Shown here piece by piece: positions 7,653 to 21,996 of a stretch of DNA of 22,763 nucleotides (the stretch's first letter is position 1; every line of letters starts with the position of its first letter). Below the pieces are notes generated by a model. It was not told the DNA's origin. It saw only the letters and a program-made list of their open reading frames with translations, and ran no database searches. Source of the DNA: a virus; the IMG/VR virus record IMGVR_UViG_3300021091_000450, positions 1 to 22,763 of that record; one strand, written 5' to 3'. The position numbers were made by a program, and so were the translations under genes.

Positions 7653-10025
7653 ATGGCAACAGTAAGAATTCAACTCAGAAGGGGCACTTCAAACCAATGG
7701 GATTCAGCTAATCCCACTTTGGCAGCAGGTGAAATTGGTATTGAAACAGATACCAACACATTTAAATTTGGCGATGGCGTAACGGCATGGAATAGCTTAG
7801 ACTATGCGCTATCAGACACAGTAGACGATTTTATTCCTTTATCACAAAAAGGTGAAGCAGGTGGCGTAGCTACTCTAGATGGTTCTGGCAAGGTGCCATA
7901 TGCACAGATACCAAGCATAGACGAATTGTCACAAGATGCAGTAAACGCAGCACTTGTTGCTGGAACTGGTCTTGATAAAACATATGATGATGTAAATAAC
8001 TTAATTACAATCGATATTGATTCAACAGTTGCCACATTGACTGGATCACAAACATTAACAAATAAGACTTTAACGTCTCCAGAACTTACTGGTACGCCAA
8101 CTGCACCAACAGCGGCTTCTAATACAAATAACACACAGATTGCCACAACTGCTTTTGCCAAGACAGTTGCCAATACAGCACAATCAAATGCTGAATCTTA
8201 TACAGATGGACAAATAACAGCGTTAATTAGTGCATCACCTTCAACTTTAAACACTTTAAATGAGTTAGCAGAAGCCCTTGGAGACGATCCTAATTTTGCT
8301 ACAACAGTAACAAATTCTTTAGCGACAAAAGCAAACGCATCTGATGTTGCTAGCACCTATGCACCACTTGTTTCTCCAGTATTTAGTGGAAATGTTGGTT
8401 TGCCCCTTACAACTTCTATCGGAGACGTAAGTGCAACTGAGATTGCATACATAAACGGAGTAACTTCTTCAGTTCAAGCACAGCTAGATGATAAACTTGC
8501 ATCTGCAACCGCTGCTTCAACCTATGCTCCTATTGCAAGCCCAACGCTTACTGGTACTGTTACCCTTCCAGCTTCAACAAGTATTGGTGACGTTTCCAAC
8601 GTAGAGATTGCATACATAAACGGAGTAACTTCTTCGGTTCAAGCACAGCTAGATGATAAACTTGCATCTGCAACCGCTGCTTCAACCTATGCTCCTCTTG
8701 TTGCCCCAACGTTTACTGGCAACGTTACCCTTCCAGCTTCAACAAGTATTGGTGACGTTTCCAACGTAGAGATTGCATACATAAACGGAGTAACTTCTTC
8801 GGTTCAAGCACAGCTAGATGATAAACTTGCATCTGCAACCGCTGCTTCAACCTATGCTCCTCTTGTTGCCCCAACGTTTACTGGCAACGTTACCCTTCCA
8901 GCTTCAACAAGTATTGGTGACGTTTCCAACGTAGAGATTGCATACATAAACGGAGTAACTTCTGGAGTTCAAACACAGCTAGATGCAAAAGCTCCTCTTG
9001 CTTCTCCAACGTTTACTGGTACCGTAACCCTTCCAGATGGCACAGTAACTGGTGCAATGATTGTCGATGCAACAATACCAACAGGTAAAATTGCAGACAC
9101 TGCAATTACTGCAGCAAAACTAGGAGCATCCGCTGTTGAAACTGATAAGATTAATGATCTAGCCGTAACAACAGGAAAAATTGCAGATAGCGCAGTAACC
9201 TCTGCAAAGATTGCAGACGGTACAATTGTAAATGCTGACATTAATGCCTCAGCGGAAATTGATTGGACTAAGTTAGCAATTTCATCAACAGTTTCTGCTA
9301 CAGAACTTGGATATGTTGACGGAGTAACCTCAGCAATTCAATCACAGATTGATTCTAAGCTTGCTTCATCAACTGCAGATTCAACTTACGCACCACTTGC
9401 TTCTCCAGCACTTACTGGAGCTCCAACAGCACCTACAGCAGCAGCAGCAACCAATACAACCCAAATTGCTACAACTGCTTTCGTAAAAACTGCAGTAGAC
9501 AATGTTATTGCCTCAGCCCCTGGAGCACTAGACACTCTTAACGAGTTGGCAGCAGCACTTGGCAATGATGCAAACTTCTCTACTACGCTTACAAATAACC
9601 TTGCTGCTAAAGCACCACTTGCTTCCCCAACATTTACTGGTACAGTAACGGTTTCAGAATCTGGAGTAGCGTTTACAGACGGCACACAAACAAAAGAAGG
9701 TGTTCCATCAAGAACGCCAATAAGTACAGTTACCGCTGCATATAATTTATCAACTGGCGGATTATCGCTAAGAGATACATTAGTTGAATGCAATTCTTCA
9801 TCAGCATTTACTATAACAATTCCAGCAAATTCAACCACAGCCTACCCAATAGGAACATCTATTGATCTCCTACAGGTTGGCACAGGTCAAATTACAGTTG
9901 CTGGCGCAGCAGGGGTTACATTAAATGGTACACCTGGATTAAAATTGCGTTCACAATATTCTTCAGCAACATTATTTAAGCGAGCAACAGATACTTGGAT
10001 AATTATGGGAGACTTAACAGCTTAA
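7653..10025 (+). CDS. Largest tail-fibre protein, 790 residues, with tandem repeats
   Basis: The N-terminus (IQLRRGTSNQWDSANP, then LAAGEIGIETDTNTFKFGDG) is the virion-attachment module seen in phage receptor-binding proteins such as the Mtd N-terminal type. The shaft carries a 55-residue unit repeated about four times (around residues 255-440) built on STYAPL, FTGNVTLPAS and IGDVSNVEIAYING. A segment of TGKIAD / VTSAKIAD repeats follows near 470-540. Two copies of an APTAPTAA...IATTAF unit bracket these, each followed by LNTLNELA or LDTLNELA. The C-terminal 100 residues (SLRDTLVECNSSSAFTITIP to WIIMGDLTA) form a compact beta domain, probably the receptor tip. It has its own promoter candidate. 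Confidence 0.85.
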   Translation: MATVRIQLRRGTSNQWDSANPTLAAGEIGIETDTNTFKFGDGVTAWNSLDYALSDTVDDFIPLSQKGEAGGVATLDGSGKVPYAQIPSIDELSQDAVNAALVAGTGLDKTYDDVNNLITIDIDSTVATLTGSQTLTNKTLTSPELTGTPTAPTAASNTNNTQIATTAFAKTVANTAQSNAESYTDGQITALISASPSTLNTLNELAEALGDDPNFATTVTNSLATKANASDVASTYAPLVSPVFSGNVGLPLTTSIGDVSATEIAYINGVTSSVQAQLDDKLASATAASTYAPIASPTLTGTVTLPASTSIGDVSNVEIAYINGVTSSVQAQLDDKLASATAASTYAPLVAPTFTGNVTLPASTSIGDVSNVEIAYINGVTSSVQAQLDDKLASATAASTYAPLVAPTFTGNVTLPASTSIGDVSNVEIAYINGVTSGVQTQLDAKAPLASPTFTGTVTLPDGTVTGAMIVDATIPTGKIADTAITAAKLGASAVETDKINDLAVTTGKIADSAVTSAKIADGTIVNADINASAEIDWTKLAISSTVSATELGYVDGVTSAIQSQIDSKLASSTADSTYAPLASPALTGAPTAPTAAAATNTTQIATTAFVKTAVDNVIASAPGALDTLNELAAALGNDANFSTTLTNNLAAKAPLASPTFTGTVTVSESGVAFTDGTQTKEGVPSRTPISTVTAAYNLSTGGLSLRDTLVECNSSSAFTITIPANSTTAYPIGTSIDLLQVGTGQITVAGAAGVTLNGTPGLKLRSQYSSATLFKRATDTWIIMGDLTA
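8416..8980 (+). repeat. 165-bp tandem repeat inside the fibre gene
   Basis: The marker gattgcatacataaacgg occurs at 8441, 8606, 8771 and 8936, exactly 165 nt apart. Copies 8581-8745 and 8746-8910 look identical base for base. The first copy (8416-8580) and the start of the last diverge. The unit is 55 codons, so copy changes keep the frame. Confidence 0.9.
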
Positions 10026-10047: not shown

Positions 10048-10980
10048 ATGGCAATTAATAAAAAGAGAGGTATTAAATCCTCAGCACAAGACAACTTCTT
10101 AGAGCCAAATGCAGTAACTGGCCTATCAGCAACAGACGTAGGCACAGGAAGGCCATTTAATAATGGCGCAGCCTCATTGTCGTGGTCTTTGCCAGCAGCT
10201 TCACCACCAGCTACTCTTTATACAATTACATCAAATCCTGCAACTACAACACAAACTACTGCAAACACATCCCTTACATTTCCTGGGCTTGCTTCAGGCA
10301 CATCTTATACATTTACAGTAGTTGCTTCAAATAATGCTGGATCTTCTGCTGGAGCAACAAGTGGATCTGTAACAGCAACAACTGTTCCAGCAGCACCATC
10401 TCCATCAGTTGCTTCTGGTCCACATGGAGGGTCAATTCCTTCTGGAAGCGATAGAATTACTTGGTCTAATCCAGCAACTGGCGGTAAGGCAATATCTTCC
10501 TTTAGAGTTACTTCTAATTTACGTGGTCAGTTAAGTGCTAGTGCCACTTCACCTTTTGATACTGCAGATCCATCTTTGCCAGATTCATCTGCTGATGAAA
10601 GTTATACAGTTTTTGCAAGCAATGCTAACGGAGAATCTTCTGGAGGAACAACGGCAACAGTTCAAACGTTTACTCCACCACACTTCCCGCCATTTTTCCC
10701 ACCACACTTCCCACCGTTCTTCCCACCATTCTTCCCACCACACTTCCCACCATTCTTCCCACCACACTTCCCACCGTTCTTCCCACCGTTCTTCCCACCA
10801 TTCTTCCCACCATTCTTCCCACCACACTTCCCACCATTCTTCCCACCACACTTCCCACCGTTCTTCCCACCATTCTTCCCACCATTCTTCCCACCATTCT
10901 TCCCACCATACTTCCCACCGTTCTTCCCACCACACTTCGTAGGTGGAGGAGTCTGCGGATACGGATGTAATCATTGGTAA
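10048..10980 (+). CDS. Virion protein with two FN3-like domains and a [H/F/Y]FPP repeat tail
   Basis: After a basic start ([11 protein letters not shown]), residues about 20-112 and 113-207 look like two fibronectin type III domains. The first holds LSWSLP, LYTITSN and [18 protein letters not shown]; the second holds ITWSNP and [13 protein letters not shown]. Residues 212-295 are 21 uninterrupted tetrapeptides of the form [H/F/Y]-Phe-Pro-Pro. The protein ends in [15 protein letters not shown], with two Cys, a His and a Trp. FN3 domains are common on phage virions, where they bind cell-surface glycans weakly. The repeat tail is extraordinary and probably polyproline-like and aromatic. AGGAG at 10037-10041 supports the start. 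It lies just before the prolyl-hydroxylase-like cassette. Confidence 0.75.
10681..10932 (+). repeat. 21 x 12-bp minisatellite encoding [H/F/Y]FPP
   Basis: Twenty-one units of 12 nt follow the pattern (cac/ttc/tac)-ttc-cca/ccc-cca/ccg, with almost no variation except in the first codon and the last Pro codon. Counts by eye are 7 His, 13 Phe and 1 Tyr in the variable position. The + strand is pyrimidine-rich throughout. Because the unit is a multiple of three, slippage changes length without breaking the frame. Confidence 0.95.
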
Positions 10981-10982
10981 TC

Positions 10983-11011
10983 TAGACATAGACATTATTA
11001 AATGATAAAAT
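10983..11011 (+). promoter_or_regulatory. Promoter of the oxygenase operon
   Basis: TAGACA (10983-10988, one mismatch to TTGACA), 17 nt spacer, then an extended -10 TGA-TAAAAT (11003-11011). Both boxes, spacing and the TG motif agree, making this one of the best promoters in the window. AAGGAGA at 11018-11024 and the ATG at 11030 follow. Confidence 0.6.
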
Positions 11012-11029
11012 ATATACAAGGAGAATATA

Positions 11030-11473
11030 ATGAACAAATATGCACTACTGACAAAGGCTAGCCCCACTACCTGGGAAGTTTTTCAGGTAATAAGATTAGC
11101 TGATTCAGAAGAAGACACTAGCCTTGCAAATATTTTAAATTTATCTATATCAAATAATGAGACAGTTGCTGGACTAGAAATATCTAATGTCAATACTGAA
11201 TTTTTAAAAAGAGGAGCTATTTGGGACGGTTCTTCTTTTAGTGGAGGAACAGAGTCAGGTTTTTCTACTCAAGAAACAAGAAATAAAAGATATGCTTTTA
11301 CATATGACAATAAACTTACTTTAGTTTTAACTGCAATAGAAGGTTCTGCACAAGCCGATATGTATCAGGCGGCCTTTGCTGGAGAAGTTTCTATTAAAAA
11401 AATTGAAGATGAATCAACCATTGTTGCAGCAGGCTATATTTGGGACGGTATTAATTTTAACGCTCCAGCATAA
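11030..11473 (+). CDS. Hypothetical protein, first gene of the oxygenase operon
   Basis: I do not recognise this 147-residue protein. It has two related short motifs, RGAIWDGSSFSGG near 71-83 and AGYIWDGINFNAP near the C-terminus. Between them is a long predicted helical and beta segment (YDNKLTLVLTAIEGS, then MYQAAFAGE). The IWDG-x-x-F ends suggest a small binding or capping domain, perhaps of a virion protein. A strong ribosome site (AAGGAGA) precedes the ATG. Its stop overlaps the next start as TAATG, so it heads the coupled operon. Confidence 0.55.
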   Translation: MNKYALLTKASPTTWEVFQVIRLADSEEDTSLANILNLSISNNETVAGLEISNVNTEFLKRGAIWDGSSFSGGTESGFSTQETRNKRYAFTYDNKLTLVLTAIEGSAQADMYQAAFAGEVSIKKIEDESTIVAAGYIWDGINFNAPA

Positions 11474-11715
11474 TGTCTAAATGGAAGGAATGGAAAAACT
11501 CTTTAGGAGAGGCCAGACCTTGGCACCTGTTAAGTTTAGAAAAATATGTATCTGATGAATCTGTTGCAAAAAATAGACTAAAAGTTTGTGAAGGTTGCAA
11601 GTTTTACACGATAACTAATCAGTGTTTAAAATGTGGTTGTCTCATGTCAGCAAAAGTAATGCTTTCTAATGCGGAATGTCCTATTGGAAAATGGGGAAAA
11701 GAAGAAGGAAAATAA
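11473..11715 (+). CDS. Small Cys-rich, probably zinc-binding protein (DUF6171-like)
   Basis: The 80 residues include C39-x2-C42, C51-x2-C54-x-C56 and C69. The pattern is LKVCEGCKFY, then QCLKCGCLMSAKVML, then ECPIGKW. This matches a small zinc-ribbon-like family common in phages, which I associate with DUF6171 from memory. Metal binding is a fair inference; its partner is unknown. It starts on the TAATG overlap with the gene before, and the next start follows its stop directly, so it is made with the oxygenases. Confidence 0.7.
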   Translation: MSKWKEWKNSLGEARPWHLLSLEKYVSDESVAKNRLKVCEGCKFYTITNQCLKCGCLMSAKVMLSNAECPIGKWGKEEGK

Positions 11716-12372
11716 ATGGAAAAACAAGAATTATTTCCAGGACTATGGGTTTATAGAAATGTAATAAAGCCAGAATTTGAAATTATTAATAGATTAGAAA
11801 ATACAATAAAAAACAGTAATGGTTTGTATAACTGGCAAGATGCAACGGTTGGTTATAGAGAAAAAATGCCAGAATATAGAGATTGTGTAGATTTTAAATT
11901 AAGATATTTTGATTATCCTGGCAAAGATAAGTATATGAAAGAATTTGATAAAATTTGGCAAGACGTTCATGATGCTCAAAAAATTGCTTTAGATGATTAT
12001 TGTTCATTTTATAATATTGAAATGAAATATTGGGAGGCAATGAACTTTGTTAAATATGGGCCAGGTCAACACTTTTCTTATCACTCAGATCATGGTTGGT
12101 CATACATAGCTACTGTTTCTATGGTTGCCTATATCAATGATGATTATGAGGATGGCGGGATAAGATTTGATAAAATTGATAAAACCATTAAGCCAAAAGC
12201 TGGGGATTTATACATCTTCCCTTCTAACTATTTATTTTCTCATGCAGCATTACCAGTAAAGTCTGGATTAAAATATTCAATTGTTACAATGACAGATTAT
12301 AATGATGCTACACACAATGAACAATTTTATAGACAATTTATGTCAGACAAGTCTATAAAGGATGGATATTAA
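11716..12372 (+). CDS. 2-oxoglutarate/Fe(II) oxygenase, prolyl-4-hydroxylase type (copy 1)
   Basis: These enzymes use O2, Fe(II) and 2-oxoglutarate to hydroxylate a substrate. In this 218-residue protein the iron triad is H123, D125 (in YHSDHG) and H176 (FSHAALPV). Lys186, ten residues after the distal His, takes the 2-oxoglutarate position. The strand YINDDYEDGG and the turn KPKAGDLYIFPS are the family core. Lys rather than Arg at that site is also found in collagen prolyl-4-hydroxylase. The substrate is not evident from the sequence. The start abuts the previous stop, with AAGGAA upstream. Confidence 0.85.
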   Translation: MEKQELFPGLWVYRNVIKPEFEIINRLENTIKNSNGLYNWQDATVGYREKMPEYRDCVDFKLRYFDYPGKDKYMKEFDKIWQDVHDAQKIALDDYCSFYNIEMKYWEAMNFVKYGPGQHFSYHSDHGWSYIATVSMVAYINDDYEDGGIRFDKIDKTIKPKAGDLYIFPSNYLFSHAALPVKSGLKYSIVTMTDYNDATHNEQFYRQFMSDKSIKDGY

Positions 12373-12375
12373 AAT

Positions 12376-13092
12376 ATGCAGTTTGAGATATATAAGGCTA
12401 GCCCTTATTCTGCAGAAATAAAGCCATTAACGATAAAAAGACAATGGATGGAAGAGACTTTTGATAAGCATGCATATCACTGCTTTCCAGTAACATTATC
12501 TAATGGATTGGGTTGGGGCATATCTTTTCCAGAAGAAATAAGTTTCATTTGGGATGGAATTTCAGACTCAACAGATACTCATGTAAAAATTTTAAGTGGT
12601 CATAAATATGTTTATACTGGAAGATCAAATGCTACTATTAGTTTTAAAACAGGATTAGTATTAAGAACCAAAGAAGATTTAAGCATGATGGCCATGCCTA
12701 CACCAAATTGGCCAATAGATGGAGTTTGGCCATTTACTATTTTAATAAGTACTTCCTTTTTTGCAGGAGAGTTTCCAGTGGCTTGGAGAATAACAAAAGC
12801 CAATGAAGTAATAACAATTCCAGCAAACACTCCAGTTATTTCTGTCATGCCAATTTCTTTAAAATCATTAAACAATTCAGAAGGTGTAATTAAAAAAATA
12901 TCAGATCTTCCATCTAATTTTTTCCCAGATGCGGATTACGGACAAATAGTTTCAGAAATAAATAAAAAAGGCGAATGGACAAATTTTTATAGAGACGGTG
13001 TTAACTATAAGGGAAATAAAATTGGAGACCATGAAATAAAAGTTTTAAGATTAAATATAGTTGATGGTCCAGAACAGTGTGGTATAAAATAA
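12376..13092 (+). CDS. DUF6065-like protein (first of two)
   Basis: The 238 residues fit my recollection of the DUF6065 family: FDKHAYHCFPVTLSNGLGWG, then FIWDGI, then a PTPNWPIDGVWP segment. A C-terminal half follows with WRITKANEVITIPANTPVI. The biochemical role is unknown. The next gene has a similar layout. Genes of this kind occur near oxygenase genes in phages and biosynthetic clusters, which hints at a shared pathway but proves nothing. It begins 3 nt after the previous stop. The ribosome site is weak (GGATGG), consistent with translational coupling. Confidence 0.6.
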   Translation: MQFEIYKASPYSAEIKPLTIKRQWMEETFDKHAYHCFPVTLSNGLGWGISFPEEISFIWDGISDSTDTHVKILSGHKYVYTGRSNATISFKTGLVLRTKEDLSMMAMPTPNWPIDGVWPFTILISTSFFAGEFPVAWRITKANEVITIPANTPVISVMPISLKSLNNSEGVIKKISDLPSNFFPDADYGQIVSEINKKGEWTNFYRDGVNYKGNKIGDHEIKVLRLNIVDGPEQCGIK

Positions 13093-13808
13093 TGAATAAA
13101 ATTATATTTCATTCAAATAAACATTACAATAAAGAAGATACTGTTCCTGTAACGGCAAGGAAAACCTTACCCCATTGGTGGGAAAATTCAGACACATTTG
13201 TAAAAGATCATGAAGGAAATCCAGTTGCAAATTTTAATGGTGAGGGCAAGATGCTAAGTTTTAAAGCCTGCCCTGCAGTACTTGATACTTTTCAAACTGG
13301 GTATATGTTATTGACTCCATGTGATTTAGAATTTTATGAAAAAAACGGAAGAATAAAAGTTAAAGTTCCAGTCGGTTTTGACGATTTTGTGGGAGAAAGA
13401 CCGCCAATGCAAGAATTTGCAACTCCAATAGGATGCAGTAAATGGCATTTTCATTGGTATGCAAATTGGGCTCCAGAATTACCAGAAGGTTATAGTTCAA
13501 TATATGTTCCACCAATAAATCATTTTGAATTGCCGTGGATTACTGTGGGTGGTATAATAGATAGCGATAAGGTTACAACATCTGGCCTTATTCCGTTCTT
13601 CTTAAAAGAAGGATTTACTGGAATAGTTCCAGCTGGCACTCCTTATTTACAAGTAATTCCATTTAAAAGAGAAGATTGGGAGTCTGAAATAGTTTTTCAT
13701 ACTGCAAAAGAAATTATGGCAAAAACAATGAAAACTTCTGATACATTTAGAACCAGCGAGGGCGGGGTCTATAAGAAATTATTTTGGTCAAAAAGGAAAT
13801 ATAAATAA
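13092..13808 (+). CDS. DUF6065-related protein (second of two)
   Basis: I place the start at the ATG at 13092, which overlaps the previous stop as TAATG; a longer frame from 13077 is open but has no support. The 238 residues include ARKTLPHWWEN, KACPAVLDTFQTGYML, and a PPINHFELPW segment. The end is well conserved in look: GIIDSDKV, then LIPFFLKEGFTGIVPAGTPY and LQVIPFKREDW. This resembles small cupin-like phage proteins of the same general family as its neighbour. Its function is unknown. A TAATG overlap leads into the next oxygenase. Confidence 0.6.
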   Translation: MNKIIFHSNKHYNKEDTVPVTARKTLPHWWENSDTFVKDHEGNPVANFNGEGKMLSFKACPAVLDTFQTGYMLLTPCDLEFYEKNGRIKVKVPVGFDDFVGERPPMQEFATPIGCSKWHFHWYANWAPELPEGYSSIYVPPINHFELPWITVGGIIDSDKVTTSGLIPFFLKEGFTGIVPAGTPYLQVIPFKREDWESEIVFHTAKEIMAKTMKTSDTFRTSEGGVYKKLFWSKRKYK

Positions 13809-14497
13809 TGCAAAAGCAGGTTAATACAAACGATACTCACGATTACAGGTCCCTTGGTTCTATTACCCCATCTGGATTTTTTGGTAAAGGAAAAGAAAAT
13901 ATTGTTGAATTACCTAATTTTTTAACCGAGTATGAAAAAGAAAGACTAACTAACTTTGCCAGAACAAATCAGACTTGGGATATAACCAATTCTCATAAAA
14001 ATGAAAATGGAACTGTAATATATGATGCAAATGCATGGGCCGATAGGGTGTGTACAAGACTTTCTATGGAAATATCTCACGACCCGACAATTGTAGATGT
14101 TGTTGAGGGGCTAATACAAAGATTACAGGTAGAAGTTGAAAAATTTTTTAATGTTAAAGTTCAGGCTACTGGTCCAGCAATAGTTAGATGGCCAGTTGGC
14201 GCAAGACAAGATCCTCATGCCGATAAAGAATTACACGAGGGTCCAGATGCTGGAACTCCAAATGATTTTCCTCACTATGACATAGCGTCACTATTTTATT
14301 TTAATGATGACTATGAAGGCGGAGAATTATTTTTTCCAGTGCAAGGAATAGAGTTTAAGCCAGTAGGAGGATCTGCATACTTTTTCCCAGGAGATAGATG
14401 GTATGTCCATGGAGTAAGGCCAGTAATATCTGGCGGCAGATTTACATCCCCATTTTTTTGGCAGATACTAGAACATACTGGAGAAATAAAACCATGA
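13808..14497 (+). CDS. 2-oxoglutarate/Fe(II) oxygenase (copy 2)
   Basis: The 229 residues carry H137 and D139 in DPHADKE, distal H201 in YVHGVRP, and Arg211 ten residues later for 2-oxoglutarate binding. The core strand is YFNDDYEGGELFF and the hinge is PVGGSAYFFPGD. A His/Asp-containing insert (HEGPDAGTPNDFPHYD) follows the HxD site and is not seen in its paralogues, so it may shape a different substrate pocket. The N-terminal 40 residues end in LPNFLTEYEKE, the usual entry helix of the family. Start on a TAATG overlap; its stop overlaps the next start as ATGA. Confidence 0.85.
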   Translation: MQKQVNTNDTHDYRSLGSITPSGFFGKGKENIVELPNFLTEYEKERLTNFARTNQTWDITNSHKNENGTVIYDANAWADRVCTRLSMEISHDPTIVDVVEGLIQRLQVEVEKFFNVKVQATGPAIVRWPVGARQDPHADKELHEGPDAGTPNDFPHYDIASLFYFNDDYEGGELFFPVQGIEFKPVGGSAYFFPGDRWYVHGVRPVISGGRFTSPFFWQILEHTGEIKP

Positions 14498-15354
14498 CGC
14501 TAAAGTTTGAAGAAATATATCCAAAAATTTTTGTTTACAAGAATCCATTTAAAGATCTTAATCTTTTAAAAAAAGTTATTATTGAATCAGAACAAAATCC
14601 AGAAGGGTCTATCCTAGGAGATTGGAAAGGATGGTACACTTTTGGAAAAGAAACAAACATGTTAAATTTTGATAGAGGAACTGATAGTGAAAGAAATAAG
14701 CAAGAAAAAGAAATGTGGGATGACGTTAGAGAGGTTTTTTATTTAACAACACAACATTATTCAGAAATACATAATGTGCCAATAGAAAAAGACAAAATTG
14801 TTCATGATTCAGTTGAAGACAAACAGATGAATCTTTGGCAATTAATGGGTCCTTCTATTTGTAAGTATGAAGTAGAGGGCGGCATTGATGATAATAACGT
14901 TGATTTAGCAATGCATATGCATACAGATTATCAACAGGAATATGAAAATCACAGAGGATATAAATTTACAGTAACCTGTACCATGTATTTAAACGATAAC
15001 TACGAAGGTGGAGGCCTAGAGTTTTTGGTAGGAGACAATAAATTATTTTATTATAAACCAAAAGCTGGAGATGTTTTAGTCTTTCCAGCTGGTGATCCAA
15101 ACTATCTTTCAGAGCCAGGAGAATTATATAGACATGGCGTTAAAAAAGTTTATGGTAATCCAAAATATTTTATTAGAAACCACTGGCAAAGATATTACTT
15201 AGGTTCAAAAGAATGGTTAGATCAAGAGTCTATTTATGGTAAAGACGTTTGGCAACAGATGGAGTCAGAAAGAACAAAACAAGAACGAAAAGAGGGTAAA
15301 TACCAAACCCTAGATTATGATTACATATATAAAAATGCGGAGAGAATAAAATGA
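14494..15354 (+). CDS. 2-oxoglutarate/Fe(II) oxygenase (copy 3)
   Basis: I choose the ATG at 14494, which overlaps the previous stop as ATGA, over the longer frame from 14398 that runs through the preceding gene. The 286 residues contain H143 and D145 (MHMHTDY), distal H214 (YRHGVKKVY) and Lys224 ten residues later. The core strand is YLNDNYEGGGLEF and the hinge is KPKAGDVLVFPAGD. After the catalytic domain, about 50 residues form a charged helical tail ending in a Tyr-rich stretch (DYDYIY). That tail might mediate contacts with a partner. Coupled to the next gene by ATGA. Confidence 0.85.
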   Translation: MTLKFEEIYPKIFVYKNPFKDLNLLKKVIIESEQNPEGSILGDWKGWYTFGKETNMLNFDRGTDSERNKQEKEMWDDVREVFYLTTQHYSEIHNVPIEKDKIVHDSVEDKQMNLWQLMGPSICKYEVEGGIDDNNVDLAMHMHTDYQQEYENHRGYKFTVTCTMYLNDNYEGGGLEFLVGDNKLFYYKPKAGDVLVFPAGDPNYLSEPGELYRHGVKKVYGNPKYFIRNHWQRYYLGSKEWLDQESIYGKDVWQQMESERTKQERKEGKYQTLDYDYIYKNAERIK

Positions 15355-16112
15355 CATATAATTTAAATAATCAAACTAAAATTAAAGAAGATGTTTTAAT
15401 ATTTGAAGATTTTCTTACAAAAGAAGAATGCGATAAAGTTTTAAAATATTGGGAGCACTCTGCAGAAAAAGGAAGTTTATTGTGGGCGCCGATTTCTTTT
15501 TACGACTCGTTTGCATCAAATTTACCAGATGATGAGGATAAAGATAAATTTGATTTACCACCAGATTTTTTTACAACCCTTCAAGATAAAATTCAAGAAG
15601 CCACCGCTATTTGTAGAGGAAAACCCGTAAAGCTTGTAAGTTATCATTGTCAAAAGTGGGTAGAAGGCGCATACGCTGGATACCATTCCGACAATACTGC
15701 AATTGACTCAGAAGAATATAATTCTTTTGAAAGAAGTAAATGGGCAGCATTTCTTTATTTAAATGATAATTTTGAAGGCGGGGCATTAAATTTTAGAGAC
15801 CATGATATTACAATACAACCTAAAACAGGAATGTTGGTAGCGTTTAATGGAGGACATCATAATATTCATGAAGTTCAAATGATAATTAGCGGAGAAAGAT
15901 GGACTATAGGATCTTTTTGGGATAATGAAGAGGCAGATTATAGCGAAGAAAAAAGAGCACTGTGGGAAGAAGATATTGCTGAGCAAAGAAAAAGACAAGC
16001 TGAGGATGCAGAAAAATGGGCTGAAATGAAAGAACGTGGAGAAAGAATGCAGCCAGGTCCAGATCAAACTGCTAAAAAAGATGTAGCTTTAAAAACTGGA
16101 GGACTAAATTAA
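15351..16112 (+). CDS. 2-oxoglutarate/Fe(II) oxygenase with charged C-terminal helix (copy 4)
   Basis: The 253 residues have H112 and D114 (YHSDNTA), distal H173 (NIHEVQMI) and Arg183 ten residues later. The core strand is YLNDNFEGGALNF and the hinge is PKTGMLVAFNGG. The N-terminal FEDFLTKEECDKV is the classic entry helix. Residues about 195-235 are very rich in Glu, Lys, Arg and Ala and predict a long helix or coiled coil, beyond the catalytic fold. The Arg variant matches copy 2, so two subgroups exist in the cassette. ATGA overlap before it; the next ATG follows its stop directly. Confidence 0.85.
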   Translation: MTYNLNNQTKIKEDVLIFEDFLTKEECDKVLKYWEHSAEKGSLLWAPISFYDSFASNLPDDEDKDKFDLPPDFFTTLQDKIQEATAICRGKPVKLVSYHCQKWVEGAYAGYHSDNTAIDSEEYNSFERSKWAAFLYLNDNFEGGALNFRDHDITIQPKTGMLVAFNGGHHNIHEVQMIISGERWTIGSFWDNEEADYSEEKRALWEEDIAEQRKRQAEDAEKWAEMKERGERMQPGPDQTAKKDVALKTGGLN

Positions 16113-16922
16113 ATGAAAAAAACAACAGTTTTAGAAAACGGAATGATTCGTGAAGAACTACATCCTCAAGTTTATTATTACAGAAATGCAATTCCTAATA
16201 TAAAAGAGTGGCTAGATTTAGTAAATGATTCTGAAAATTATCCAGATATCTACCCAATTCTTACTCCCTGGAATAGATGGGATGTAGATGAAAATAGATC
16301 AATGGGGCACCCATACATTTATGGTTATAAAAAATTATGTCTTTTAAATAATGTTTATAATATTGACAAAGAAGTTTCTGAAGAAACAAAAGAAATGTTT
16401 GCGAAAATTAGAGATCCACTTTTTAATGCAATAAGGTTAGTGTGTGAAGATTACAAAAAAGAACAAGGCATTGAAAAAGAACTTATACTTTTAGAACAAT
16501 TTGGGGTTCACAGATACCGTGCTGGAAATTATATGGGCGTTCACCATGATTCGCAAGAAGGCGATACAAGACTTTTGTATTCATTAGTTGTTTGGCCAAA
16601 CGATGATTATGAAGGTGGAGAACTTTCTTTTAGCATTAGGGATGGTGTAATAACTGGAACTGAAAATGCGTTAAAAGATGACCTACTTGACCCAGAAAAC
16701 GAAGGAAGATATGACTTTTACATTAAACCAGAGGCAGGAAGCATTGTAATTTTTCCTTCACCTGCTCCATTTAGTCATACTGCACATTTAGTTAAATCTG
16801 GATGGAAGTATATGCTCCCAATGTTTTGGATAGATCCAAGCGGAGAAGATGTGTTATTTAAACAGGATCCAGAATGGGAACCAACCTTTGTTTATCCAGA
16901 TAAAGAGGATTTATTTAATTAA
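16113..16922 (+). CDS. 2-oxoglutarate/Fe(II) oxygenase, prolyl-4-hydroxylase type (copy 5)
   Basis: The 269 residues contain H144 and D146 (GVHHDSQEGD), distal H222 (FSHTAHLVKSG) and Lys232 ten residues later. The core strand is WPNDDYEGGELSFS and the hinge is KPEAGSIVIFPS. Between them an insert (about 175-200, IRDGVITGTENALK then LLDPENEG) is shared with copy 6, marking these two as the closest pair. GGAGG at 16098-16102 precedes the start. Its substrate is unknown. Confidence 0.87.
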   Translation: MKKTTVLENGMIREELHPQVYYYRNAIPNIKEWLDLVNDSENYPDIYPILTPWNRWDVDENRSMGHPYIYGYKKLCLLNNVYNIDKEVSEETKEMFAKIRDPLFNAIRLVCEDYKKEQGIEKELILLEQFGVHRYRAGNYMGVHHDSQEGDTRLLYSLVVWPNDDYEGGELSFSIRDGVITGTENALKDDLLDPENEGRYDFYIKPEAGSIVIFPSPAPFSHTAHLVKSGWKYMLPMFWIDPSGEDVLFKQDPEWEPTFVYPDKEDLFN

Positions 16923-16924
16923 TA

Positions 16925-16933
16925 TGATATACT
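16925..16933 (+). promoter_or_regulatory. Weak internal promoter candidate
   Basis: TGA-TATACT is an extended -10 with one mismatch, in the only real gap of the oxygenase operon. The -35 region (16905-16910, GAGGAT) is poor. CGGAGG at 16939-16944 would lie right at the transcript start. It may simply be AT-rich spacer. Confidence 0.3.
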
Positions 16934-16949
16934 ATTTTCGGAGGTTAAA

Positions 16950-17666
16950 ATGATAGCAGAAAAACTTTTTGACAATGTTTATTATTATAAAAACGTAATT
17001 GAGGATCCAAAAAAATTAATTAATTTAATTGAATCTACTCAAGCAGACAACTTTTCAGACTTTATTACTAAATGGGAAGAGTGGTCAGCATGTAGTGGAG
17101 AAATGTATGTCTATGGAGAACATAAAAGAATTAAATGTTTGTCCATCGAGCAGGTATTAAAAGAATGTAAAGACGATGTTCTTGATGAGGCCAAGTATAT
17201 ATATAGTCAAATTTTTGACGGCATGAAGGCAGTTTGCGAAGATTACGCACAGAAGGTAAATGATGATGCTAAAATAATATTGATGACAGATACTGCGATT
17301 AAAAAGTATATGCCAGGAACCTTTATGGGGTCTCATTTTGATCAGCAAGAAGGAGATAAGAGATTAAGATATTCTTTGGTAATGTATCTAAACGACGACT
17401 ATGAGGGGGGAGAACTTTCTTTTAATGTTAAAGATGGAGTTCTTACTTCTACAGACGATGCCGCAGCTGAAGATTTTAATAGTCCGCTAAATCATAATAG
17501 AATAATGTTTCACGTTAAACCAGAAGCTGGTAGCGTAATTATATTTCCATCAGTAGATCCATATAGCCATACAGCTCATTTAATAAAAAGCGGAAATAAA
17601 TATATGGTTCCATCATTTTGGTTAAACAAAGGACAATTCGTAGACGGCGTTTTTGTTCCAGCCTAG
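16950..17666 (+). CDS. 2-oxoglutarate/Fe(II) oxygenase, prolyl-4-hydroxylase type (copy 6)
   Basis: The 238 residues have H129 and D131 (GSHFDQQEGD), distal H207 (YSHTAHLIKSG) and Lys217 ten residues later. The core strand is YLNDDYEGGELSFN, followed by the insert KDGVLTSTDDAAAEDF and the hinge KPEAGSVIIFPS. It is the sister of copy 5, from which it probably arose by local duplication. CGGAGG at 16939-16944 gives it a strong start. It could be expressed partly on its own if the weak promoter just upstream is real. Confidence 0.87.
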   Translation: MIAEKLFDNVYYYKNVIEDPKKLINLIESTQADNFSDFITKWEEWSACSGEMYVYGEHKRIKCLSIEQVLKECKDDVLDEAKYIYSQIFDGMKAVCEDYAQKVNDDAKIILMTDTAIKKYMPGTFMGSHFDQQEGDKRLRYSLVMYLNDDYEGGELSFNVKDGVLTSTDDAAAEDFNSPLNHNRIMFHVKPEAGSVIIFPSVDPYSHTAHLIKSGNKYMVPSFWLNKGQFVDGVFVPA

Positions 17667-17678
17667 AAAGATAAAATC

Positions 17679-18230
17679 ATGGCAATGTATGTTTTTCAAG
17701 AACTTTCTCCAAAAGTTTTTTATTTTACTTATTGTCTTCAAGAAATAGGTAATTATATACAATTTATTGAAGAGACGGAATCTCAACCATCTAAAGATAA
17801 TTTAATTAGTAGCTGGCAAGATAGAGAATGGGGATATGAAAAAATCTTTTCCTCAGATTTTAGTGATAAAGAAAAACCAATAGATGGAAGAGCTTTGTTT
17901 TTAATAAATAATTTAAAAGCCACTTTCCACTATTGTTTTGGACAATATAAGATATTTAATAACATTGAAGATGATGTTAACCTAGAAACAACATATTCTA
18001 TTCAAAAGTTTAATGAAAATAATACTGATGATGTTTTTACATCACATGGTAGGTATACTGCAAGACTATATATTAATAATTCATTTGATGGCGGAGAGGT
18101 AACTGTATCTGGTAGGCCTGCATTTAAACCAGAGGCAGGCAGCATTATAATCTCTCCTTCTACATTTAAAATAGAACATAATCCAGCAACAAACAACTCA
18201 AGGTATATAGCAAAGGGATACTGGGTATAA
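17679..18230 (+). CDS. Degenerate oxygenase-like protein (lost HxD motif)
   Basis: The 183 residues keep the family layout: entry segment PKVFYFTYCLQEIGNYIQF, core strand YINNSFDGGEVTV, hinge KPEAGSIIISPS, and distal H167 with R175 near. The iron ligand pair HxD is replaced by H123-G-R125 (TSHGRY), so the carboxylate ligand is missing. Some metalloenzymes of this fold tolerate loss of the Asp (halogenases have Ala or Gly), but Arg here would hinder iron binding. A non-catalytic scaffold or regulator is more likely. The frame is intact, arguing against a simple pseudogene. The ribosome site is weak. Confidence 0.65.
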   Translation: MAMYVFQELSPKVFYFTYCLQEIGNYIQFIEETESQPSKDNLISSWQDREWGYEKIFSSDFSDKEKPIDGRALFLINNLKATFHYCFGQYKIFNNIEDDVNLETTYSIQKFNENNTDDVFTSHGRYTARLYINNSFDGGEVTVSGRPAFKPEAGSIIISPSTFKIEHNPATNNSRYIAKGYWV

Positions 18231-18254: not shown

Positions 18255-20012
18255 ATGTCATATTATCATAACGTATTAAAAGACCTCCCACTAGGTTTCT
18301 GGAAACTTGATGAGGTTGTTGGGTCAGTCGCATATGATAGTTCTGGATGCGGCAACAATGGAAGCTATGTTGGCAATATATTAAATACTTCAATTCCAAT
18401 AGTTTCTGGAGGATCTAGTGCTACGAAAATAACTAATACAAATTATTTAGAATTTTCAATAACTAAAGATTTTAGTGGCCTGAATGGCGTAGGAGGATTT
18501 GGAACAGGTAAAACTTCTGACAATGATTTCTCTCTTGAAATATGGTTTCATCCTAAAAGTTTAACAACATTAACTCCAATATTAGCAGACTCATCTGGAA
18601 TAGGAGTGTATTGGGATAATGGCAATATAGTGTTTAAATTAGAGCAAGAACAGATTGAATATTCGGTTCCAAATCCTAGTAGGTCTTTACATGTTGTAGC
18701 TATATACTCAGTTAAATCAATGTCATTATATTTAAACGGAAATTTAGTTGCTAATAAATCAATATCAAAAATAAATTTTACCAACGAATCTTTGTCTTTT
18801 AATTGTGGTCCAGCACCTATAAACAAATATTTTATTGTAGATGCTCCAGCAATTTATAGATATTCCCTGTCTCCTAATCAAATTCTAAACCATTATAATA
18901 ATTTTATTTCTAACACAGAGTCAAACATTGTTTTGCCAGACTCTGGAGAAATTTTTAAAGCTTCTGAAATGTATCAGAACATAAACACAACCGTGTCTTT
19001 TCCAGCACTGTTAGATTGGCAATATCACGTAGACGATAATATATTGTACAGAGAATATACTAATAGCCTATATCTTTCCCCGTCTTCAAGTTATGGAGAA
19101 TTTATAAAAGTAATTAGCTTACCACACTGGAAAAATTTTGTTTCCTCCAAATTGGAAATACTGGCTAGTGACGGAGTGTCAGTTTATATTTCTACAGATA
19201 ATCAGTCTACTTGGCAAGAGTGTGAAAACGGTAAGGCTCTTCCTGGATTTAGCCAGGGTTCTGATTTTTTAAATAAAAAAGTTATAGCAATAAAAGTAAC
19301 ATTTGAATCTGATGATTCTGAAAAATATGTTCCAGAATTGTATTATATAAAAATACATTTTTATGATGAGAAAAAGCTTTTAGCCCATGGCGGCGGCAGT
19401 ATAATTTCTGTTGAGCAACCAAATTTAGGAGACTCATGGGAAATATCTATATCCAACACAAATTCAAATATATTATTAAGAGAAAAGGATAATGGAATTA
19501 CTCCTGATAATTCAGTCTTTTATATAAATACATTAAAAGACATAAATTATCTTGAGATGATATTTTGTCCAAAATCATTATCTTCTGGATATTTGTTCTA
19601 CAATAAAACAGACGGGGTAGAGTCATCTTTGTATTGGGCCACCAATGGCACAATAACAAAGACAAATATCTCAAATTTGTATGTTAATGGTCAAGATATA
19701 ACTTCTCAAAATAATATCTCTAACTATTTATATGTTGATGAGCCTAACTATATTCTTATAAAATCGTCATCTGAAATGACAGGCCAGATTTGGATAAACG
19801 GGAAACAGGATGGCGGGAACAGATCAGGAGTACTAGATAATAATACCTATCAAAATATAGCTATATATGATTTAGAGTCAGTAGACCACTTGAAACACTA
19901 TAACCTGTATATTGGAAAAGATATTATTGAGGCTAGTGATTCTGTCATTCAGATCACAGAAGAAGCAGTCAAGACATATTCTAGAGACAGGGTTCTGTTA
20001 AATAATATATAG
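18255..20012 (+). CDS. Virion protein with two LamG/concanavalin-like domains
   Basis: The 585 residues start with PLGFWKLDEVVGSVAYDSSG and the GNNGSYVG turn typical of LamG-type domains, which bind carbohydrate. Continued strands are FSLEIWFHPKSL and MSLYLNGNLVANKS. Residues about 230-375 form a second beta-rich domain with VSVYISTDNQSTWQECENG. The last 200 residues look like another LamG-like unit (YLEMIFCPKSLSSGYLFYN, then GQIWINGKQDGG). Such proteins are usually tail or neck appendages that touch cell-surface sugars. No signal peptide is seen. The start is leaderless. It sits between the oxygenase cassette and the head genes. Confidence 0.65.
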   Translation: MSYYHNVLKDLPLGFWKLDEVVGSVAYDSSGCGNNGSYVGNILNTSIPIVSGGSSATKITNTNYLEFSITKDFSGLNGVGGFGTGKTSDNDFSLEIWFHPKSLTTLTPILADSSGIGVYWDNGNIVFKLEQEQIEYSVPNPSRSLHVVAIYSVKSMSLYLNGNLVANKSISKINFTNESLSFNCGPAPINKYFIVDAPAIYRYSLSPNQILNHYNNFISNTESNIVLPDSGEIFKASEMYQNINTTVSFPALLDWQYHVDDNILYREYTNSLYLSPSSSYGEFIKVISLPHWKNFVSSKLEILASDGVSVYISTDNQSTWQECENGKALPGFSQGSDFLNKKVIAIKVTFESDDSEKYVPELYYIKIHFYDEKKLLAHGGGSIISVEQPNLGDSWEISISNTNSNILLREKDNGITPDNSVFYINTLKDINYLEMIFCPKSLSSGYLFYNKTDGVESSLYWATNGTITKTNISNLYVNGQDITSQNNISNYLYVDEPNYILIKSSSEMTGQIWINGKQDGGNRSGVLDNNTYQNIAIYDLESVDHLKHYNLYIGKDIIEASDSVIQITEEAVKTYSRDRVLLNNI

Positions 20013-20075: not shown

Positions 20076-20423
20076 ATGGAAATTAAAAAGATCAATGCAA
20101 AGGTTAAAGAAAATGAAACCAGGCTGGGCGTGTACGTCTGGGAAATGCCAGATGGCAGGTGGATAGGCGACGATGATGGTAATTTCCTTTCAATAGCGTC
20201 AATGAAAGACAATAGAGACAGAATCAATTTGTTGGCCAAGGCAGTAAGGGGATATGGAATTACTGAAGGCAATCCAAAGTTTCTTGAGGGAAGCAGGCAG
20301 ATTGATGATGAAGAGTTTGAGTATCAAAAGCAGAGACTAAGATGGGGCCTAACACCAGATCCATTAGATGTAGGTGTTTATAAAGATGAAACGGCTAAAT
20401 TAAGGAAGGGTCAAAATGATTGA
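20076..20423 (+). CDS. Small conserved protein upstream of the portal
   Basis: The 115 residues are acidic and basic in turn, with GVYVWEMPDGRWIGDDDGNF near 18-37. A helical segment INLLAKAVRGYGITEGNPKF follows, and the tail is charged (QKQRLRWGLTPDPLD). I recall similar small proteins just ahead of portal genes in actinobacteriophages, but not a function. Start is leaderless. Its 3' end overlaps the portal start by 8 nt, so it is coupled to the portal and may help assemble the head or packaging vertex. Confidence 0.6.
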   Translation: MEIKKINAKVKENETRLGVYVWEMPDGRWIGDDDGNFLSIASMKDNRDRINLLAKAVRGYGITEGNPKFLEGSRQIDDEEFEYQKQRLRWGLTPDPLDVGVYKDETAKLRKGQND

Positions 20424-21996
20424 GTACGAAGAAGACACATTGTCAAATGATGTAGAAATATCAAATATCACAGACTGGATTAGATTTAATTCTAGTATAA
20501 CTCAAAAAAACAATGATTCATTTTCCCTAGAAGGCGAAGAGCTTTTAAAATTATCTGGACTTAGTCCAGCATTAAGAAGAAAAGCAAGCAGAGATATACA
20601 AAAGAAATTTGTCGGGACCGAAGGAACTGGAACCCAGCAATTATTAACTCAGCAGGCAGTTAGCGGATATGCCCTATTTGATCTTGTAATGCCTGAATAT
20701 AATTTAGATTATTTATCCACAATATATGAAATTTCCCCATATAATTATGCAGCAATTAATGCTAAGGTTTCTAATATTGTAGGCCTTGGATTTGATTTTA
20801 TTGAATCTAGAAAAACTACAGATATGTTAGATGGTATTAATGATGAAAAACAATTAGAAAGAGCCCGCAGAAAATTAAATAGAATTAAACAAGATTTACA
20901 TGAGTGGCTAGAAGATTGCAATGAAGAGGAAACATTTAAAGAAACACTTATTAAGTTCTACACTGACGTAGAAGCCACTGGTAATGGCTATCTAGAGGTC
21001 GGTAGAACGACTTCTGGCAAGATAGGGTACATCGGACACATCCCTTCAAAGACAATGCGTGTAAGGCGCCTTAGAGACGGTTTTGTGCAGTTGTTATACG
21101 GTAAGGCTGTATTCTTCCGTAATTTTGGAGACACCGAAACTCCTAATCCAATAGCAGGCGCAACAGATCGTCCTAATGAACTTATTCACTTGAAGAAATA
21201 TACACCTAAGAATAACTATTATGGAATTCCAGATATTATTGCAGCACAAAATGCTATGGCAGGAAATGAGTTTGCTGGCAAATATAACTTAGATTATTTT
21301 GAAAACAAGGCAGTCCCTCGCTACATTATTACGGTTAAGGGAGCAAAATTATCTCCTGAATCTGAGCGTAAGTTGCTAGAATTTTTCCAAGTTGGGCTTC
21401 GTGGCAAAAACCACAGATCTCTATATATTCCATTGCCACCAGATTCTCCAGATTCTAAAACAGAATTTAAGATGGAACCAATTGAGGCGGGCGCACAAGA
21501 GTCTTCATTTAATGTTTATCGTCAAGCAAATAGAGATGAAATATTGATGGCACACAGAGTTCCAATTAATAAAATTGGAACGGCTACTGGAATATCTTTG
21601 GCAAATGCTAGGGATGCCGATAAGACATTTAAGGAGCAGGTATGCCGTCCATCGCAAGATATTCTTGAAAAGAAATTAAATAAAATTATTCAAGAAATGA
21701 CTGATGCCCTAGTTCTTAAATTTAATGAATTAAGTTTAACCGATGAAGATACTCAGTCTAAAATTGATGAAAGATATTTAAGATTACAAGTAGTTACCCC
21801 TAATGAAATTAGAATTAGAAAGGGTATGGTCCCAAGAGAAGGCGGAGACGAGGTAGTAGATTTAGCTGCTAAGGCCGCCGAAATTAAAGCTGAAGCTTTA
21901 AATAGCAGAACCAGGGATCAGGAGCGTGAAGCAAATTCCCCAGATAATTCAGGGGAAGGTAGAAATGCAAAGGGTGACGGCAGACAAGTCGAGTAG
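20416..21996 (+). CDS. Portal protein
   Basis: Portal proteins form the dodecameric ring through which DNA enters the head. The 526 residues show the typical landmarks of HK97/PBSX-type portals: SPYNYAAINAKVSNIVGLGF at 107-126, DVEATGNGYLEVGR at 184-197, and GHIPSKTMRVRR at 207-218. LIHLKKYTPKNNYYGIPDI and NRDEILMAHRVPINKIG follow. A helical stem is expected in between. The tail is charged and polar (NSPDNSGEG), as is common. Start at 20416 with AAGGAAGGG upstream, overlapping the previous gene. The prohead protease gene follows, giving the usual portal-protease order. Confidence 0.92.
   Translation: MIEYEEDTLSNDVEISNITDWIRFNSSITQKNNDSFSLEGEELLKLSGLSPALRRKASRDIQKKFVGTEGTGTQQLLTQQAVSGYALFDLVMPEYNLDYLSTIYEISPYNYAAINAKVSNIVGLGFDFIESRKTTDMLDGINDEKQLERARRKLNRIKQDLHEWLEDCNEEETFKETLIKFYTDVEATGNGYLEVGRTTSGKIGYIGHIPSKTMRVRRLRDGFVQLLYGKAVFFRNFGDTETPNPIAGATDRPNELIHLKKYTPKNNYYGIPDIIAAQNAMAGNEFAGKYNLDYFENKAVPRYIITVKGAKLSPESERKLLEFFQVGLRGKNHRSLYIPLPPDSPDSKTEFKMEPIEAGAQESSFNVYRQANRDEILMAHRVPINKIGTATGISLANARDADKTFKEQVCRPSQDILEKKLNKIIQEMTDALVLKFNELSLTDEDTQSKIDERYLRLQVVTPNEIRIRKGMVPREGGDEVVDLAAKAAEIKAEALNSRTRDQEREANSPDNSGEGRNAKGDGRQVE

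Follow-up and report, generated by a model that had tools for sequence, protein, structure and literature searches.

A tandem PPxF array and a cassette of 2-oxoglutarate oxygenases form a putative adhesin module in phages

Gene content of the locus

We analysed a 22,763-nt virus record of IMG/VR (IMGVR_UViG_3300021091_000450, positions 1 to 22,763; the whole stretch is hereafter called the window), in which a gene for a tail-region protein with a tandem proline-rich array (the FPP protein) is followed by seven genes for 2-oxoglutarate (2OG)-Fe(II) oxygenases or oxygenase-like proteins (ox1 to ox7). Comparison with related loci suggests that the array and the oxygenases are inherited together as one adhesin module, and we think it probable that the enzymes hydroxylate the array. 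The FPP protein gene sits between a tail fibre gene and, past the cassette, the phrog_11584 and portal genes, in the following order.

7653..10025, + strand: tail fibre protein, upstream flank (PHROG tail fibre matches)
10048..10980, + strand: FN3-type tail-region protein, 310 aa, which bears the FPP array and, C-terminally, a short tip containing two Cys (Pfam fn3, sequence)
10681..10932, + strand: PPxF array of 21 tandem [H/F/Y]FPP units (sequence count, Tandem Repeats Finder)
11030..11473, + strand: 147-aa protein without PHROG match, homologues in some relatives
11473..11715, + strand: 80-aa Cys-containing protein, phrog_13558, DUF6171-like, just below the DUF6171 cut-off
11716..12372, + strand: ox1 oxygenase, cassette core, prolyl-hydroxylase-like fold (Pfam 2.9e-12; model pLDDT 88.7; PDB matches)
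12376..13092, + strand: DUF6065 protein, cassette marker (Pfam 6e-32)
13092..13808, + strand: phrog_7084 protein, predicted dUTPase-like beta fold (moderate match)
13808..14497, + strand: ox2 oxygenase (Pfam 2.9e-7; HxD..H present)
14494..15354, + strand: ox3 oxygenase (Pfam 2.4e-9; HxD..H present)
15351..16112, + strand: ox4 oxygenase (Pfam 2.9e-10; HxD..H present)
16113..16922, + strand: ox5 oxygenase (Pfam 7.5e-9; HxD..H present)
16950..17666, + strand: ox6 oxygenase (Pfam 2.1e-10; HxD..H present)
17679..18230, + strand: ox7, oxygenase-like, without the HxD pair (Pfam 0.0017, below cut-off)
18255..20012, + strand: phrog_11584 protein, common downstream flank of the exchanged module
20416..21996, + strand: portal protein, marker for comparing relatives (phrog_12, 2.8e-55)

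Tandem PPxF array, 2OG oxygenases and DUF6065 gene, the three elements by which we define the module, stand here in one block. A preliminary description had placed the enzyme operon about 50 nt after the FPP gene and had ended the interval at 17666. The next open reading frame (ORF) does begin at 11030, 49 nt past the FPP stop, but neither it nor the ORF at 11473 encodes an oxygenase; ox1 starts at 11716, 735 nt past that stop, and the oxygenase run in fact reaches 18230. For ox3 the ATG at 14494 lies within a longer ORF (14398-15354), and searches ran from 14485 (three additional residues). The upstream fibre gene holds a 165-bp unit in 3.3 copies (96%, window 8439-8985).

The array protein and its variants

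The count of 42 Pro in 84 residues, in 21 [HFY]FPP units, was exact for residues 212-295, which correspond to 10681-10932. The first unit letter is F in 14 units, H in 6 and Y in 1, and Tandem Repeats Finder reported a 12-nt unit in 21.5 copies at 10675-10932; this regularity is beyond chance composition. The protein also contains an fn3 domain (Pfam E 1.9e-11, residues 40-100). A collagen-like protein was ruled out, since the 84-residue array has zero Gly and so no tandem Gly-Xaa-Yaa.

Among loci with DUF6065 the repeat unit varies between FPPx (four residues), PPxFF[S/A/G] (six residues) and mixtures of both, with PPxF as the common core; one locus (L716; L numbers denote loci) has PPDF units together with a PASTA domain. 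The N-terminal domain joined to the array is FN3, PASTA or none, and the C-terminal tip may be Cys-rich or Hint-like.

The oxygenases

The Pfam family PF13640 (2OG-FeII_Oxy_3) was matched above the 27-bit cut-off by six of the seven ORFs (11716, 13808, 14494, 15351, 16113 and 16950), while the ORF at 17679-18230 scored 19.7 bits. The HxD...H iron-binding triad is kept in ox1 to ox6 and was invariant in 18 hand-picked oxygenase rows. The HxD pair missing from ox7 is also absent from its homologue in 23/26 relatives that could be anchored, so that ox7 is probably a pseudo-enzyme, judged from its residues; in near relatives it holds the same position.

The AlphaFold2 model of ox1 (predicted local distance difference test, pLDDT, 88.7) matched the prolyl 4-hydroxylase (P4H) of P. 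putida, PHD2, the vCPH of Paramecium bursaria chlorella virus 1 (PBCV-1) and an algal P4H. All 50 PDB matches listed, of 563 with E <= 0.001, were prolyl hydroxylases, mostly PHD2 entries, with TMq values of 0.53-0.67. A profile of the 18 hand-picked sequences had procollagen-proline dioxygenase and prolyl 4-hydroxylases as top PDB matches (E 9e-15). The prolyl-4-hydroxylase features described earlier for these enzymes were supported for ox1, by model fold and profile matches; among the oxygenases the structural comparison covers ox1.

These results also bear on the view that the oxygenases serve in DNA repair or auxiliary metabolism. In an excerpt of PMC9146016, a single cyanophage is reported to have nine 2OG-Fe(II) oxygenases, and an older proposal of DNA repair for such copies is mentioned; PHROG calls some of the matched families DNA endonuclease. 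However, the cassette adjoins an adhesin array, the ox1 fold and the top PDB sequence matches are those of prolyl hydroxylases, and AlkB was far weaker with the 18-row profile (E 0.07 versus 1e-14 for prolyl hydroxylases). On these grounds we rejected a repair role, and the view as a whole appears very improbable.

DUF6065, phrog_7084 and the composition of the cassette

The DUF6065 and phrog_7084 proteins are homologous to each other (hhalign probability 96.4). For the phrog_7084 model, dUTPases were a moderate structural match (best Z 10.1, root-mean-square deviation 3.0 over 124), from which no function is assigned. In 29 hand-chosen array loci, homologues of ox1, DUF6065, ox2 and ox4 were present in 29/29, those of ox6 in 28, those of ox3 in 24, and a phrog_7084 or second DUF6065-like gene in 19. 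Genes like phrog_7084 were also seen in six loci without an array (L426, L529, L549, L692, L706 and L718). The phage collection gave no match to the whole module in a DNA search, and none to the FPP protein or DUF6065 by tblastn. Searches with ox4 and ox1 matched 44 and 230 records there, most of them cyanophages of low identity.

Co-occurrence starting from the array

A search of the viral collection for three [H/F/Y/L]FPP units in tandem, made with a degenerate DNA pattern, yielded at least 119 stretches. Three control sets (random 15-mer, Pro-Glu/Lys repeat and collagen pattern) consisted of the matches listed, more such loci existing. Oxygenase ORFs were scored with an iterated oxygenase profile, the same for the controls, and flanks were comparable (mean 4.3-4.5 kb available within 3 kb, both sides summed). 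Of the 119 listed stretches, 64 had an oxygenase no more than 1 kb from the FPP match, 82 had one no more than 3 kb away, and 85 had one at any distance within the stretch; counted by clusters of near-identical stretches, 74/107 had one within 3 kb. The corresponding numbers within 3 kb were 0/120 for the random 15-mer (5 within 5 kb, 7 anywhere; 70 clusters), 0/120 for the Pro-Glu/Lys repeats (115 clusters) and 9/119 for the collagen pattern (119 clusters), where L417 was left out of 120 stretches as it was already in the Pro-Glu/Lys set. For the remaining 34 FPP stretches, a PF13640 search of their entire records added 0/1 (L145), 5/10 and 13/23 (12 above the cut-off), bringing the records with an oxygenase to 103/119. 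The nearest oxygenase lay 13-32 kb from the FPP match in the five records checked (L130, L139, L144, L147 and L160). The FPP pattern matched 44 stretches of cellular genomes, eight with an array-like ORF, and three of these eight (L253, L263 and L280) also had oxygenase ORFs.

For a count by family we used 240 array ORFs from L001-L284 and the window, leaving out those with fewer than 40 aa ahead of the array; the set was partly fetched by FPP and oxygenase queries, which biases the count upward. The rule for array ORFs missed 16/119 FPP stretches, in which the frame or the array was short, a start codon was lacking or the contig ended. In the large FN3 family an oxygenase lay within 3 kb in 133/136 evaluable cases, always downstream and on the same strand.

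Co-occurrence starting from DUF6065

An alignment scan with DUF6065 was taken as a second starting point. The best 80 of 588 loci, with 52-100% DUF6065 identity to the window, were considered; 43 with at least 4 kb upstream were evaluable and 37 were dropped. The array played no part in selecting these loci, yet 18/23 query rows derived from the window or from scans for FPP or oxygenases. Each of the 43 evaluable loci (28 clusters) combined one or more oxygenases with a same-strand tandem PPx[FYWH] array, and its anchor was always closer to DUF6065 than to phrog_7084. The array was still visible in 25/37 dropped loci (less than 4 kb upstream).

In a wider set of 268 DUF6065-profile loci a PPxF ORF was absent from 37. 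These comprised 26 with less than 4 kb upstream, L623 among them, five FPP stretches that the rule missed (L122, L137, L159, L182 and L211), and the six array-less loci listed above with phrog_7084-like genes, which are closer to phrog_7084 than to DUF6065. Separately, a 2OG oxygenase and a collagen-like (Gly-Xaa-Yaa) phage ORF were seen side by side in the stretches L529, L531, L543, L549, L551, L579, L592 and L623; among them L623 has a DUF6065 gene, and L529 and L549 a phrog_7084-like gene.

Comparison among portal relatives

Relatives of the window were collected independently of the module by an alignment scan with the portal protein, in which 30 of the best 80 of 591 had at least 9 kb upstream and were kept, and 50 were dropped. 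The array was present in 15/15 relatives with at least four oxygenases. The tandem PPx[FYW] array was in the locus in 13 of them and elsewhere in the record in two, namely L679, with FPP at the contig edge, and L658, which belongs to the same record as the array-bearing L006. By ORF count the array was found in 0/14 relatives without an oxygenase, and the whole records of these 14 (12-78 kb) contained no PF13640. They also gave no match to the FPP-tandem or PPxFF-tandem patterns, which is only a partial check because both patterns together detect 5/8 array-bearing records; the ORF count is the main evidence. Fisher's test for 15/0 versus 0/14 gave p 1.3e-8, with relatives treated as independent.

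In three of the 14 oxygenase-free relatives an FN3 adhesin is retained, and a long Gly-rich region takes the place of PPxF in its C-terminal part (L713, 2660-4195; L723, 3815-5494; L726, 657-2363), and the remaining 11/14 had no FN3 profile match. In L713 this gene occupies the interval where its sisters carry the PPxF module. On the tree together with L713 stand L693 and L697, which have an array protein without FN3. Since FN3 persists without the array in the former three, and the array is found without FN3 in L693, L697 and L716, the array goes with the oxygenases more than with the domain attached to it.

The expected co-occurrence of FPP repeats and cassette therefore holds strongly among relatives (82/119, 43/43 and 15/15), and array and cassette are missing together (0/14 oxygenase-free portal relatives with an array). 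Many cassette-bearing phages without a proline-rich repeat gene, which would speak against a link, were looked for and not found: all 43/43 and 15/15 had an array.

Further features of the array genes

Several other properties of the array genes were observed. Besides the FN3-type array gene, a second, upstream PPxF-array gene is present in L033, L034, L035, L043, L048, L050, L062, L063, L064, L066, L067, L069, L752, L754, L769 and L793. Hint- or intein-like C-terminal ends seem common (L039, 6146-7468; L716, 5991-7157; L721, 576-2132; L145, 3-782; also L157, L199, L203, L231 and L238). Matches to Pfam Intein_splicing and PT-HINT were below cut-off in L039, L716 and L189, and the other Hint-like ends were recognized by eye or by a C-terminal pattern. 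Other array proteins end in Cys-rich tips, the tip of the window protein being short, with two Cys.

Seventeen FPP-array genes of the PASTA-like class have a split reading frame (L122, L138, L169, L179, L182, L185, L188, L192, L194 with two genes, L201, L211, L221, L222, L226, L233 and L239). At the junction the frame-0 codon CGG is followed by A, and a +1 step gives GGA. Elsewhere in these loci, which were picked by eye and of which L122 and L182 appear identical there, CGG is nearly absent (1/35,845 codons versus 36/38,930 in nine hand-picked comparison loci). In a rule-based pass, 17/127 array frames had no early start; 16 had CGG in the preceding frame, 15 of them at one of two fixed offsets. 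The related L187 has the homologous stretch in an uninterrupted frame. From these letters, the split genes look like cases of programmed +1 frameshift at an avoided codon.

Weighing the link between enzymes and array

The three co-occurrence tests, together with the retention of PPxF while the unit changes, lead us to regard the array and the oxygenases as one co-inherited adhesin module, as far as gene content can tell. Among the readings considered, we favour hydroxylation of the PPxF array by the cassette oxygenases as the best one and hold it to be probable, with proline most likely the residue modified. This was the central proposal of the preliminary description; co-occurrence and the prolyl-hydroxylase fold of ox1 support it, while arrays without oxygenases and the exchange of the region as a block detract from it.

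The following observations weigh against the proposal. No oxygenase was found in 16/119 FPP records, including L128 (36.8 kb), L193 (38.4 kb) and the portal relative L145, many of the 16 being short fragments (6.9-38.4 kb). In L145, a 7.3-kb record, the array gene is followed by the portal gene 2.3 kb on, with no oxygenase. The array families without FN3 are more loosely associated: an oxygenase lay within 3 kb in 8/17 evaluable members of the second family (PASTA domain in the tested member L033) and in 0/6 of the third, whose members have a long N-terminus and in L048, L050 and L062 are the second array gene of a cassette-bearing genome; the remaining eight small families together had 6/11. 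In the opposite direction, L692, the remaining one of the 30 portal relatives, has one oxygenase and no array, and L623 (3.1 kb upstream) combines a true DUF6065 gene, oxygenases and a collagen-like ORF with no PPxF in its 4.0 kb. The array pattern was found in 0/17 control records with stray phage 2OG oxygenases, and the annotated 2OG-gene regions of S-RIM50, S-MbCM7 and Melnitz-3 had no tandem PPxF in 22-31 kb; phage 2OG oxygenases in general thus do not imply an array. On the portal tree the cassette changes only four times, and the independent-pairs test (three supported pairs, L716 scored array-free) gave two concordant pairs, one tie and no discordant pair (p 0.5), too few for significance. 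Finally, seven oxygenase-like genes exceed the need of one simple repeat.

Array and cassette are moreover exchanged as one block, so linkage alone could hold them together. Nearly the whole interval from the fibre genes to the phrog_11584 gene was swapped in the three pairs compared (L721/L698, L721/L719 and L697/L713). This exchange, and the few independent changes on the tree, keep hitch-hiking among the readings, that is, an array gene and oxygenases with unrelated jobs that share an exchangeable adhesin block. Against it, the cassette never occurs without the array in 43/43 and 15/15 loci, down to 52% DUF6065 identity and despite differing units, and in L716 the array gene stands on the opposite side of the core cassette. 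We consider mere hitch-hiking unlikely.

It is less probable than hydroxylation of the array, but more so than hitch-hiking, that the oxygenases serve the adhesin system but act on another target, such as fibre residues, the Cys-rich or Hint-like tip, a virion glycan or the host envelope, with the array as a structural companion. The paralogues differ in length and keep their order in near relatives, which suggests several targets; many arrays are accompanied by Cys-rich or Hint-like C-terminal ends, and the module is placed among fibre genes. However, the tips and N-terminal domains vary while the array is the constant part, and the fold of ox1 resembles that of peptidyl prolyl hydroxylases.

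Under the favoured reading, hydroxylation of the array, the region would work as a single adhesin-maturation module. The array protein is presumably a virion component, given its place among fibre genes and its FN3 domain, and would carry a PPxF rod that holds a small Cys-containing tip (Cys-rich or Hint-like in relatives). The rod would be hydroxylated by the co-encoded oxygenases inside the infected cell, either while virions are assembled or earlier. Positions or residues may be divided among the six active paralogues, and the inactive ox7 and the DUF6065 and phrog_7084 proteins may hold or present the substrate. Hydroxylation might make the rod stiffer or stickier, change its surface or mask it.

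Comparison with known systems

Viral use of prolyl 4-hydroxylase "remains cryptic" according to a passage of PMC9301287 (2022), which mentions genes in viral metagenomes and cites the PBCV-1 enzyme; an excerpt of PMC9611531 lists a viral prolyl 4-hydroxylase transcript, and one of PMC10202952 describes phages that infect freshwater actinobacteria and have a variable island encoding two collagen-like proteins and a portion of the tail fibre protein. PPxF or FPP arrays paired with phage oxygenases were not found in open-access literature listings, subscription literature being outside this scope. With a defined candidate substrate beside the enzymes, matching them in presence and absence among relatives, the question of viral prolyl hydroxylases becomes testable. 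If the proposal is true, phages complete the adhesins they make by hydroxylating the protein in an oxygen-dependent reaction, and a stage of assembly depends on O2 and 2-oxoglutarate.

The closest viral likeness is vCPH of PBCV-1 (5c5t), a virus-encoded 2OG-Fe(II) prolyl hydroxylase among the top structure and sequence matches. It differs in belonging to a virus of algae. This enzyme was reportedly described by Eriksson in 1999 as acting on proline-rich peptides, and it is not known to belong to a cassette of several paralogues next to a fixed PPxF array gene. Procollagen-proline dioxygenase (5iax), P. putida P4H (4iw3, solved with EF-Tu according to its title) and algal P4H (3gze, solved with a Ser-Pro peptide according to its title) are of the same fold class and, by sequence, of the HxD..H-type family; unlike the system described here, their titles name no PPxF rod, and identity was 13-19% in the structural matches listed. 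Phage collagen-like fibre proteins likewise have a repetitive rod in the fibre region and some oxygenase neighbours (9/119), whereas the window array has no Gly-Xaa-Yaa and the link of collagen to oxygenases is much weaker.

The extensins and other hydroxyproline-rich glycoproteins of plants and algae have a proline-rich helix that is hydroxylated. Unlike them, the window array is PPxF, stands in a phage and has no glycosyltransferase among the annotated cassette genes. We tentatively put forward, as a possibility well short of an expectation, that widespread phages make hydroxylated polyproline-aromatic adhesin stalks by means of a multi-enzyme line which reads PPxF at any repeat length, combines several active prolyl-hydroxylase-like paralogues with a conserved inactive copy and DUF6065/phrog_7084 helpers, and would be the phage counterpart of extensin and collagen maturation.

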